From assembly GCA_007118095.1 (NCBI GenBank), contig SKSF01000022.1, forward strand, positions 1-59,285: DNA of 59,285 nucleotides, written 5' to 3'. Below the pieces are notes generated by a model. The model saw only the letters and a program-made list of their open reading frames with translations. It did no database searches and was not told the DNA's origin. Made by a program: the position numbers and the translations under genes. The DNA comes from Dehalococcoidia bacterium. Lineage in GTDB: Bacteria > Chloroflexota > Dehalococcoidia > Tepidiformales > Tepidiformaceae. This document shows positions 21,476-25,778 of the stretch, piece by piece (positions within the stretch are counted from its first letter, which is position 1; each line of letters begins with the position of its first letter).

Positions 21476-23398
21476 CTACTCAGCGGCCTCTTCCTCACCA
21501 GCGTCACCGCTGCCGTCGTCCTCTTCAACGTAGACGTATCCGTCCTGTTCAGGGTGGAAGTCGCAGGTAATCTGGTACTCACCCGTCTCGTTAAAGGTGA
21601 ACTCGAAGGTGTCGCCCTCGGCGAAGTTCGGATCTTCCGTTTCGCCGCCGATGGTCACCGTGTGCAACGTTGGGCCAACATTCTCCCAGAGGACGGTAGT
21701 GCCGGGACGAATCTTGGCAACACCACGGTTCGGCTCGAGCTCTTCACCGTCCGCATCGAAGGTCCAGTCCGTATTGTGCGACCGGATGACCAGTTCATCA
21801 GTGAAATCCTCGGGTGGCTCGGCCGGTGGGAAGTCATCCTCGACTGCATCCGGGTCCCCAACGATCGAGGCGTACGTGCCCTCCGTTACGGCGTGCTGCA
21901 CACAGCCCTCACCCGTGTTCACGGCATCGGCGGGCGCAGTGCCGTAGGCGTGGTCGGGCAGTTCCAACTGCGTCCCAACGCGGAGCACATCGTCTTCCGT
22001 GTACCCGTTCGCCTGGGCGAGCTCGGGGCCATTGACATTTCCGTACTCGTCGGCGACGTCGCTGAAGTCATCGCCCTGGATCACATACGCATCAACCTGC
22101 GGCAGGTCGAGGACGATCTCGTGCGTCACGTCATCCGGGTCGTCGATCTCCGGGTTCAGCTCCATGAGCTCTTCGACGGTGGTGTCGTGCATCTGGGCGA
22201 TGCCTTCGAGCGTGTCGAGCTCCTGGACCGTATATTCGGCTCCGTCGGGTAGCTGGATGGGCTCGTTCGCCGGCGCTTCGTCTTCTTCGCCAGCGTCGTT
22301 GAGGGTGGCCAGCTCGTCGCCTTCGAGGCCATACCACTCGGCGACCACATCCCAGTCCAGATCGTCAGCGAGAATCACAACCGGGTCTGCCGGCAGCTCC
22401 AGATGCCGTTCGCCGTCCATCTCCTCGTCATCCTCAATGCCTTCGAGCATTGCCTCGTTGAGGGCCCGGATTTCATTCGGGGAGATGTTTCGCTGTTCGG
22501 CAATACTTTCGAGCGAGTCGCCCGCGATGACGGTATATGTCGCCTCTTCGGGAAGTGCCAGCTCTTCCCCGGGTAGCAGGCCGGACACAGGCTGGCCGTC
22601 CTCATCAAGGAGCCGGAACTCGGAGCCGACATAGTCGACCTCGTAATCGATATCGTTGAGATCGGCGATCATCGTGGCGCCCACGTACAGGTCGCCAGTC
22701 AGCGTTTCGATGCTGTCGAAATCGCCGATGATCGTGTATTCGGTGCCTTCGGGGTCCTGGTTGTTCGGCGGCACCTGGATGGTCCTGCCACGCTCAAGCG
22801 TTTGGTCGACCTCGTCCATGGGGACGTCGTTCGCCTCCGCAAGGCGCTCAACGCCCAGGTTGTGCGCATCCGCGATTGATTGCAGCGAGTCGCCGGTGAT
22901 CGAAGGCACAAGCTCCATGTTGAGGTTGTGCGCGAACCGGCGCGCATCAACCCAACCCCGGCTGGTGGGTTCACCGTCCTGGTCGACATATTCGTCGCCG
23001 TTTTCGGGTGCGGTCAGCAGGTTCACCAGGTGCTCGATCTGTCGGACGTTTAACGCGCCACCATGCTCATCAAGCCAGGCGGGCATGGTGGTACCCGCAC
23101 GCCCACAGGCGAGTGTCTGCCACAACATTTCCTGGTTTTCTTCCAGGGCGATCGGGTCCTGGTCGCGCCAATCCGAGCGGTTCAGGGCAGGGGCAACAAA
23201 ACCTTCGCCCTGGTTCCCGTGGCAAGTCCGGCAGTTATTCGCGTAGAGCAAACCGCCACGTGTCACGGACTCCCAGTACATGTGTTCCTCTTGTGAGTCC
23301 GCTCGCACGGGAAGGTCGATCACCGTGTAGCCCGCACATCCTCCAACGATCAGGAAGAGGAGCGTGACGATGAGGACTCGCTGCTTGTTGGTATTCAA
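21476..23398 (-). CDS. Lipoprotein fusing cytochrome c, six LysM-like repeats and a cupredoxin
   Basis: The 640-aa protein starts with a lipobox (LIVGGC, Cys21). Residues 45-130 form a class I cytochrome c: CRTCH at 56-60 and axial Met105 in TTMPAW. Residues about 164-481 hold six acidic LysM-like repeats (for example YTVIAGDSLESIAEQRNIS), each ending near a LxLP turn. Residues about 532-626 form a cupredoxin with copper ligands His579, Cys612 and His615; the axial Met position is Gln618. It is the last gene of the cytochrome b-Rieske operon and has no separate cytochrome c1 partner, so it probably takes electrons from Rieske through the heme domain and may pass them to the copper domain. LysM repeats usually bind peptidoglycan; here they may be spacers or wall anchors. 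The domain order is not one I know. Confidence 0.85.
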   Translation of the reverse strand: MNTNKQRVLIVTLLFLIVGGCAGYTVIDLPVRADSQEEHMYWESVTRGGLLYANNCRTCHGNQGEGFVAPALNRSDWRDQDPIALEENQEMLWQTLACGRAGTTMPAWLDEHGGALNVRQIEHLVNLLTAPENGDEYVDQDGEPTSRGWVDARRFAHNLNMELVPSITGDSLQSIADAHNLGVERLAEANDVPMDEVDQTLERGRTIQVPPNNQDPEGTEYTIIGDFDSIETLTGDLYVGATMIADLNDIDYEVDYVGSEFRLLDEDGQPVSGLLPGEELALPEEATYTVIAGDSLESIAEQRNISPNEIRALNEAMLEGIEDDEEMDGERHLELPADPVVILADDLDWDVVAEWYGLEGDELATLNDAGEEDEAPANEPIQLPDGAEYTVQELDTLEGIAQMHDTTVEELMELNPEIDDPDDVTHEIVLDLPQVDAYVIQGDDFSDVADEYGNVNGPELAQANGYTEDDVLRVGTQLELPDHAYGTAPADAVNTGEGCVQHAVTEGTYASIVGDPDAVEDDFPPAEPPEDFTDELVIRSHNTDWTFDADGEELEPNRGVAKIRPGTTVLWENVGPTLHTVTIGGETEDPNFAEGDTFEFTFNETGEYQITCDFHPEQDGYVYVEEDDGSGDAGEEEAAE

Positions 23399-23410
23399 TC
23401 GCTCCTCCGC

Positions 23411-24025
23411 TTAGCTGTAGGGAATCGCCCGCAGGGGGTTCGGCGGGTCGGCAGCGCCACTGGTGATGGCGCTGGTGTTCACGGTGATGCTGCCGTCGGC
23501 ATTCACCTCGACGTCGAACGTATCCATGCTCCGGGGAGCAGGACCGAACACGCGCACGCCCGCCTTGGAATAGGTAGATGCGTGGCAGGGGCAGCGGAAC
23601 CAGCCCACGATGCCCGCATGGCCGACGGCGCCACCATCGAACGCCGGGTTCCACGGGACGGTGCACCCGAGATGGGGGCAGACCCAGTAGAGCGCCAGGA
23701 GGCCGCCAGTGCCACCCACGCCCTGCACGTCGCCTTCGCCGCCGTCGAGGTTCACCAGCCAGAAGCGGCCCTCGCTGTTGCGCTCCGGTGTCCCACCGGG
23801 CCCCGGGATTTCACCCGGGCCGACAGTCACCGGCGCGCCGAAACCGGTAGGGCTGCGAAGGTTGAAGAATGCGAGGAAGCTGGCAAGCATCCCGCCCACA
23901 AACAGGGTGAGGCCAGCGAATGCGCTCACCCGGAGAAAGGAGCGGCGCGCGACCTTGCGCGCTTCCTGCTGCCTCGCCTGTTCGATGCGGCCCGCGCGGG
24001 GGCCGGAGGTCGGCCTATTCGACAT
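23411..24025 (-). CDS. Rieske 2Fe-2S subunit of a cytochrome b complex
   Basis: The 204-aa protein has an N-terminal twin-arginine segment (ARRSFLRVSAF) and one membrane anchor (residues 35-54). Cluster ligands are Cys116 and His118 (CPHLGC) and Cys145 and His148 (CPCHAS), with Cys121 and Cys147 forming the usual disulfide. A long insertion rich in Gly lies between strands before the cluster. It moves electrons from quinol oxidised at cytochrome b to the c-type cytochrome encoded 12 bases downstream. Confidence 0.95.
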   Translation of the reverse strand: MSNRPTSGPRAGRIEQARQQEARKVARRSFLRVSAFAGLTLFVGGMLASFLAFFNLRSPTGFGAPVTVGPGEIPGPGGTPERNSEGRFWLVNLDGGEGDVQGVGGTGGLLALYWVCPHLGCTVPWNPAFDGGAVGHAGIVGWFRCPCHASTYSKAGVRVFGPAPRSMDTFDVEVNADGSITVNTSAITSGAADPPNPLRAIPYS

Positions 24026-24069: not shown

Positions 24070-24966
24070 CTAGTCGGGCGGCTGGTACCCGGGTATCCCT
24101 TCGTCAACGCTAAGGTTCCAGGGGAACACCAGGTCCTGGTCTTCGCCGCGGAAGCCGGTGCCGGCGAGGACCAGCATCGCGTTGACGGCCACGAATCCGC
24201 TAAAGAGCACGATGAGCGCGTCGCGGCGGGTGAACACCCAGCCGATGCGCCACAGGACATAGATAAGGAGCGAGGGCAGGCCCACCATCATGATGATGGG
24301 GATGGCAATCTCAACGATGAATGATGGGAGGTCAACGTTCTGGAACGTCGTTGCGCCGAAGCCGGTGAACCCTTCATCGAGGATGCGGAGCTCAAACGGC
24401 AGGTAGGGAATTGACTCAGACCATTCCGGCCACGGGAGGTTGCCCTGGATGGCACGGGAGTTCTCAAGGAACCGAAACGTGTCTCCGCCTGAGATACCGA
24501 ACCAGCTATTCAGCACGCTTGCGATGGTGCCCTGGTTCCAGAGGATGAGGAGCCACGTGCCGACGACGCCAACGATGGCGGAGACGACGGTGAGCTTCAC
24601 GGAGCCTTCGGTCGCGAACCAGGCGCCCTGGCCATCGTTGTCGCGGTCGAAGTAGGGGAATGCGCCGAGGATGATGAGCCAGACGGTCGGCACGATGACG
24701 CCGGCCGTCGCAGCCTCCATGTGGAGGAGCAGTTCCTGCAGGTTGAGCAGGTACCAGGGCGCCTTCGCCGGGTTCTGAGTGACGTCCGGGTTTGCCTGGT
24801 CGAGAAGCGGCGCGTTGAGGATCACCGAGAGGATGAAGATCGTGAAGGTGAACAACAGCGCCGAGATGAACTCGACAAACACCAGGTCGGGCCAAACGAG
24901 AACCTCTTCGTCCCGGGCTCGGGCCTGTGGTCTGGCAGCCGGACGTGCAACGACAGCGGTGGCCAT
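24070..24966 (-). CDS. Cytochrome b C-terminal subunit (subunit IV-like), 298 aa
   Basis: The segment NPAKAPWYLLNLQELLLHM carries the quinol-site loop (PEWY-like, here PWY followed by a conserved Glu). Several hydrophobic helices follow at roughly residues 25-50, 90-110, 130-155, 225-245 and 255-275. It is longer than subunit IV of b6f (about 160 aa), with extra C-terminal helices as in menaquinol complexes of some Gram-positive bacteria, but no heme-binding CxxCH is present. Split cytochrome b supports a b6f-type complex. Confidence 0.9.
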   Translation of the reverse strand: MATAVVARPAARPQARARDEEVLVWPDLVFVEFISALLFTFTIFILSVILNAPLLDQANPDVTQNPAKAPWYLLNLQELLLHMEAATAGVIVPTVWLIILGAFPYFDRDNDGQGAWFATEGSVKLTVVSAIVGVVGTWLLILWNQGTIASVLNSWFGISGGDTFRFLENSRAIQGNLPWPEWSESIPYLPFELRILDEGFTGFGATTFQNVDLPSFIVEIAIPIIMMVGLPSLLIYVLWRIGWVFTRRDALIVLFSGFVAVNAMLVLAGTGFRGEDQDLVFPWNLSVDEGIPGYQPPD

Positions 24967-25025: not shown

Positions 25026-25778
25026 CTACAGGGGCCGTGCGAGGCCGCCGTCCCGGCGGATCCTCCAGAAGTGCACGGCCATGAAAATTGCTGCGAGCAG
25101 CGGCAGCGCGATGACGTGAAGGGTATAGAAGCGGATCAGGGATTCAGGACCCACTTCGAAGCCACCGAGCATCCAGAACCGGGTCTTGGGCCCGAGGACC
25201 GGTGCCGCGCCGGCAATTTCGCTCCCGACGGTGATAGCCCAGAAAGCGAGCTGGTCCCACGGAAGCAGGTAGCCGGTGAAACTGAGGAGGAAGGTGAGCA
25301 CCAGGAGGATGACACCGACCACCCAGTTGAATTCGCGCGGTGGCTTGTACGCGCCGGTATAGAACACCCGCATCATATGCAGGAAGACTAGTATGACCAT
25401 GGCGTGGGCCATCCAACGGTGCATGTTTCGCATTAACTGTCCGAACTGCACGTTGGTCTGGATGTTCTGGATATCCAGGTAAGCCCGTTCGACGCTTGGC
25501 ACGTAATAGAACATCAAGAGAATGCCGGTGACCGTGAGCCCCAGGAACATGAAGAAGGTGAGGCCACCAAGGCAGTAGGTGTGGGTAATCTTGACGTGCG
25601 TCCGGTGGATACGCGTCGGATGGAGGTGGAGGAAAAGGTTCGTGGCGACGACAAGCATCTGGTTCCGCGGGGTGTTCGGGTACCCGGTACGGAAGATGGA
25701 TTTCCACACGTAGTTGTGGAACATCTTGTCGTAGATCTTGTCGGCCAGCGTCGGCTTGCCAGGTTGTTCAACTGCCAT
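25026..25778 (-). CDS. Cytochrome b6-type subunit of the quinol-oxidising complex
   Basis: Four heme-ligand histidines are at 120, 134, 221 and 236, giving spacings of 14 and 15 as in cytochrome b6 (bc1 has 14 and 14). Cys69 in [10 protein letters not shown] matches the cysteine that binds the extra heme cn/ci in b6f-type complexes. Four membrane spans are evident in 250 residues. It acts in the cytoplasmic membrane to bifurcate electrons from (probably) menaquinol. Confidence 0.95.

Follow-up and report, generated by a model that had tools for sequence, protein, structure and literature searches.

A single gene in a member of the Dehalococcoidia joins a heme c domain, six LysM repeats and a cupredoxin domain in one polypeptide, which raises the question of what a LysM array is doing between two redox domains and where the electrons passing through them are delivered. 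The gene lies within the window, the whole stretch of 59,285 nt analysed here (contig SKSF01000022.1 of assembly GCA_007118095.1, Tepidiformaceae). Coordinates refer to the window unless another locus is named, and all features of the gene and its operon are on the reverse strand (-).

Operon context and domains of the fourth subunit

The gene (21476..23398) is one open frame of 640 codons, encoding 640 aa. Its TTG start codon lies 12 nt past the stop codon of the gene for the Rieske [2Fe-2S] subunit (23411..24025; Pfam 1.6e-6) and is preceded by a Shine-Dalgarno-like GGAGGAG (23402..23408). Cytochrome b is split into two genes adjoining Rieske, one for a subunit IV/PetD-like C-terminal half (24070..24966), which gave a partial Pfam match just below the cut-off and has orthologues in nearly every operon, and one for a cytochrome b6-like N-terminal half (25026..25778), whose best solved match was cytochrome b6 itself (2.2e-51). 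Cys35 of cytochrome b6, which ligates the extra heme (heme cn/ci) of the b6f complex, has its equivalent in the N-terminal half, where tYCLGG aligns with FYCLGG. No cytochrome f match was found for the fourth subunit in Pfam; a class I cytochrome c was matched instead. The position directly after Rieske and the membership of a b6f-type operon, both given in the preliminary description, were thus borne out, and the fusion protein is the electron-output subunit, the variable position of Rieske/cytochrome b complexes.

The protein consists of an N-terminal membrane anchor, a heme c domain, six LysM repeats and a C-terminal cupredoxin, on which Pfam, a family HMM and fold matches agree. The anchor (residues 1-26, 23321..23398) was modelled as a helix over residues 3-26 and contains a lipobox-like VGGC motif with Cys21. 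This motif and its Cys are kept in every complete Tepidiformaceae member, whereas most relatives in the class have a plain, uncleaved-type transmembrane helix with no Cys at this position; the subunit, earlier called a lipoprotein, could possibly be one. The class I cytochrome c domain (residues 43-130, 23009..23272) matched the Pfam families Cytochrome_CBB3 (9.7e-8, residues 45-112) and Cytochrom_C. It has a single heme site, with one CRTCH (residues 56-60, 23219..23233) and not two CXXCH motifs. Cys56, Cys59 and His60 are invariant in the class alignment, and the proposed axial ligand Met105 (23084..23086) is invariant in alignment A2, with Leu at this position in one relative. The heme c domain with CRTCH and Met105 was thereby confirmed.

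Pfam detected LysM in the window protein well within its cut-off (1.4e-29). A family LysM HMM, built from the window repeats and their orthologues, resolved six repeats, none weaker than 5e-8: repeat 1 (residues 165-212, 22763..22906; 5e-14), repeat 2 (221-285, 22544..22738; 5e-8), repeat 3 (287-338, 22385..22540; 7e-15), repeat 4 (340-386, 22241..22381; 3e-8), repeat 5 (388-435, 22094..22237; 2e-13) and repeat 6 (436-483, 21950..22093; 4e-14). Only cupredoxin-type chains were present among the top 50 Foldseek matches listed for the full-length AlphaFold model, and the LysM part was therefore folded separately. Folded alone it gave a pLDDT of 94 and a pTM of 0.87, and its model matched LysM structures, some of them solved with bound glycan. 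The repeats, called LysM-like at first, therefore both score and fold as LysM. Near the operon, an open reading frame (window:28975-30261) was annotated by eye as coding for a protein that looks exported, has LysM-like repeats and ends in an M23-peptidase-like part.

The protein is very acidic (pI 4.05, 23% D+E), an unusual feature that is common to its genus. Several long open reading frames with exported-looking N-termini (window:39034-45035) have a pI of about 4.05-4.3. Salt-in halophily was considered as the cause of the acidity and rejected: the cytoplasmic-looking products of the window mostly have a pI of about 4.6-6, so that only exported-looking proteins are extreme.

The cupredoxin domain (residues 535-625, 21524..21796) was identified by a weak Cupredoxin_1 match (2.1e-4, residues 553-622, below the Pfam cut-off) together with structural matches of the C-terminus to plastocyanin (Z 10.3) and amicyanin. 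The His, Cys, His ligand set of type 1 copper is present as H579 (21662..21664, nearly invariant), C612 and H615, but the usual axial Met is missing and the domain is without any Met. The loop CDFHPEQ (C612-x2-H615-x2-Q618, 21545..21565) puts Gln618 at the axial place, so that the type 1 copper domain described initially stands in fold and in these three ligands but not in its classical axial Met. Axial Gln is found in the window protein and in its congener G001 (CLYHPEQ), whilst C-x2-H-x2-M is found in all the other Tepidiformaceae members covered by the alignment. An axial Gln is expected to give type 1 copper a lower potential than Met does, and a lower potential is accordingly expected for the copper site with Gln618. 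Among natural type 1 copper sites, a Gln ligand is known for one of those in Thermus NirK and for stellacyanin (PMC6400189).

Distribution of the subunit and its inserts in the Chloroflexota

The fusion is present in nearly all Tepidiformaceae genomes (over 20 genomes of the family), including the complete isolate genome of Tepidiforma flava (CP115149); no clear homologue was found in G006, an 81% complete MAG of the family. Orthologues are 38-45% identical over their full length in most of the family, and its complete members possess four, five or six LysM repeats according to the family HMM. Relatives elsewhere in the class are similar to the heme part only. Their genes occupy the same site, after cytochrome b and Rieske, and the order of the operon was identical in those class-level loci that were complete.

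About 94 Chloroflexota operons were surveyed, and nearly all encode a fourth subunit in which a class I cytochrome c with a membrane anchor is joined through a linker to a terminal carrier. A cupredoxin, supported by Pfam on representatives (several weakly), or a further heme c serves as this carrier, some subunits having two CXXCH sites. Between copper and heme there were seven changes of carrier on the cytochrome b trees, quick and careful alike, with gain and loss not distinguished. One locus (L184) was excluded from the counts of carriers and of tail Cys residues, its tail being without Cys and a contig end being nearby. Three f21 relatives (L055, L069 and L074) have kept heme c and the Cys pair considered below and have no terminal carrier, indicating that the carrier is not always needed.

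LysM was found in none of the 88 other heme-subunit open reading frames collected, and it appears once on the cytochrome b tree, in the Tepidiformaceae. Sister families possess unrelated inserts at the same site (VERG...GT...H-rich, helical or short) between the same redox ends. In five f66 relatives (L066, L067, L070, L179 and L180) the LysM array is replaced by a linker of 430-510 residues with a VERG..GT..H-type repeat; the linkers of L066 and L070 gave no Pfam match. The domain order next to cytochrome b is therefore conserved in nearly all Tepidiformaceae, and its LysM element is limited to this family. No published description of a LysM-bearing cytochrome-cupredoxin subunit was found in the open-access literature searched. 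The fusion is a new variant of the output subunit, conserved more widely than one sequence could show.

A paired cysteine and the placement of the LysM array

The window protein has six Cys residues (21, 56, 59, 98, 499 and 612), of which two serve the heme, one the copper and one the lipobox-like motif, leaving Cys98 and Cys499 as extra. Cys98 (23105..23107) lies in the CGRAG loop before the axial Met and is proposed as one half of a disulfide on the basis of its co-occurrence with a Cys499-type residue. Its proposed partner Cys499 (21902..21904), in a CVQ motif that aligns with CGQ in class relatives, stands 36 residues before the copper domain (499-535). The CGR Cys and the CGQ/CVQ tail Cys were both present in 49 rows and both absent from 44, with one further row lacking a readable tail; L073 and L196, which have an insert inside their cytochrome, were counted as CGR-bearing. 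The pair has a single origin on the tree, so that the 49:44 pattern does not amount to 93 independent observations, and a sign test restricted to independent pairs could draw on just one to two of them and hence gave no p-value. A second lineage of four members (L158, L159, L163 and L174) has a different Cys in the axial loop (YVCG), matched by one in front of the copper domain (PACW or a similar motif), and with both kinds of pair counted together there are two changes on the tree.

Between 65 and 511 residues separate the CGR Cys from the tail Cys. From the tail Cys on to the copper Cys there are 96-137 residues in those rows measured that have one cupredoxin, and 218-223 in the two rows that have a pair of them. 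As the two Cys residues occur together and all long inserts fall between them, the array probably loops out to the side: judging from the alignment, a Cys98-Cys499 disulfide would close off the LysM insert and keep the copper near the heme. The full-length AlphaFold model is of low confidence at both Cys regions (98-115 and 489-505).

Electron route and role of the array

In the window's genome, which is 98% complete, PF13442 and PF00034, the two families searched, each match only the fusion protein. The proposal that the subunit replaces cytochrome c1 and soluble carriers is plausible on this inventory. In the two other Tepidiformaceae genomes that were read, a second PF13442 match was traced to long multi-helix open reading frames ending in a heme c domain (L200:3183-5936 and L202:2729-4678), which by eye resemble a CopC/CopD-like copper protein and not a soluble cytochrome.

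The genome encodes two COX1 proteins. One belongs to an aa3-type oxidase operon, in which subunit II has CuA and no cytochrome domain and which ends with a gene for a 533 aa membrane protein with two C-terminal cupredoxin domains (L100:5013-6611; G000:C7). Homologues of the di-cupredoxin protein were found in 17 of 17 good Tepidiformaceae genomes, and it is a likely electron entry to CuA. The second COX1 gene (L101:5540-7153; G000:C107) is solitary, with no subunit II or III adjoining. Elsewhere in the genome, a NosZ-like gene with a Tat-type N-terminus (L105:1784-4395; G000:C112) is directly preceded by a gene for a lipoprotein-like cupredoxin (CDYHLPEM), a possible copper donor for N2O reduction.

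Gene content makes transfer from Rieske to heme c, then to a leashed cupredoxin and on to the copper proteins of the oxidase the simplest route. The subunit would act as the electron output of a b6f-type menaquinol oxidoreductase, menaquinone being the presumed donor, and would be anchored in the membrane by its N-terminal helix or by a lipid. Heme c would take electrons from the Rieske centre, and the cupredoxin, held by a short and flexible tether of about 36 residues (499-535), would receive them and pass them to the di-cupredoxin protein and then to CuA. With the start of this tether pinned to the heme domain by the Cys98-Cys499 disulfide, the six LysM repeats would form a rigid side loop, which may bind peptidoglycan glycan and so hold the complex at the wall. 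Taken as a whole, this explanation, with its leashed copper shuttle and disulfide-pinned wall-binding loop, is the one we favour, with moderate confidence.

The envelope agrees with such a loop. Penicillin-binding transpeptidases are present in the genome, Tepidiformales genomes are without outer-membrane genes, and Tepidiforma cells yield sacculi (PMC10284905). Tepidiforma cells are bounded by a membrane 7 nm thick, a periplasm of 40 nm that includes a peptidoglycan layer of about 20 nm, and an S-layer (PMC10284905). The LysM loop could plausibly touch this wall, whilst one rigid 332-residue array would not be expected to cross the whole envelope.

The insert might instead be a spacer or shield only, the LysM folds serving as a stable scaffold that binds no glycan and leaves the redox work unchanged. 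The unrelated inserts that sister families carry at the same place, between the same redox ends, make such a role possible, and the marked acidity of the array (pI 4.05 for the protein) also speaks for it. Against this, four to six LysM repeats have been kept in all complete members of the family, whose cells are monoderm and possess peptidoglycan (PMC10284905), and the array resembles structures of which some contain bound glycan. We regard the spacer as unlikely, though far from negligible.

The preliminary description had suggested that the protein could be a single tethered wire, long enough to span the wall and possibly directed at an external acceptor. The copper domain is indeed C-terminal to the array, and an axial Gln could, from general knowledge of type 1 copper, lower its potential relative to Met. 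However, the Cys pairing and the near-constant spacing from Cys to copper place the copper near the heme, and the array, whose prediction as a single rigid unit is of high confidence, carries no redox centre in its repeats and looks too short for an envelope with a 40 nm periplasm (PMC10284905). The aa3-type oxidase and its di-cupredoxin protein also provide an internal acceptor, no other PF13442 or PF00034 cytochrome c is present in the genome, and sister families keep the same redox ends without LysM. The outside wire is therefore very improbable, and electrons are probably handed to an oxygen-reducing enzyme while the wall is held. That the heme and copper parts belong to two different proteins, fused here through misassembly, has practically no chance of being correct: the window does come from a 227-contig MAG, but the same architecture in the complete T. 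flava genome and over 20 genomes of the family refutes it.

The reading of the subunit as a wall-held output with its own shuttle can be extended to the family, in the tentative form, which we rate at somewhat below even, that complex III of the Tepidiformaceae is staked to peptidoglycan by its output subunit, with a disulfide-pinned LysM loop fixing it beneath the wall, and that the oxidase receives its electrons from the leashed copper domain, no soluble cytochrome c being involved. If true, a single polypeptide would give a respiratory complex both an electron shuttle and a wall anchor of its own, respiration would be bound to one place in the wall, and the phylum would offer a natural series in which the last carrier of one and the same complex alternates between heme c and copper. 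As Tepidiforma is cultivable, both the choice between copper and heme and the fixing of respiratory complexes to the wall become testable.

Among known systems, cytochrome b6f is similar in its split cytochrome b, in the b6-like half with its conserved Cys35 and in the Rieske gene of the operon, but here there is no cytochrome f, and the output is a class I cytochrome c and a cupredoxin with a LysM insert. The diheme QcrC of the actinobacterial cytochrome bcc-aa3 complex, chains of which were among the PDB matches of the window heme domain, is likewise an output subunit that is anchored in the membrane and has two successive carriers; unlike QcrC, the present subunit has copper in place of the second heme, a LysM loop and a split cytochrome b as its partner. 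The copper domain shares its fold with amicyanin and plastocyanin-type cupredoxins and with the Nitrosopumilus purple cupredoxin (5fc9), and the C-x2-H-P-x-M spacing of the Tepidiformaceae is amicyanin-like, whereas the window's genus has the axial Gln of the Thermus NirK site and stellacyanin (PMC6400189). In repeat sequence and fold the array resembles the LysM (CBM50) arrays of a Thermus NlpC/P60 protein (4uz2) and fungal Ecp6 (4b8v), but here it is built into a subunit of a respiratory complex, flanked by the heme and copper domains.
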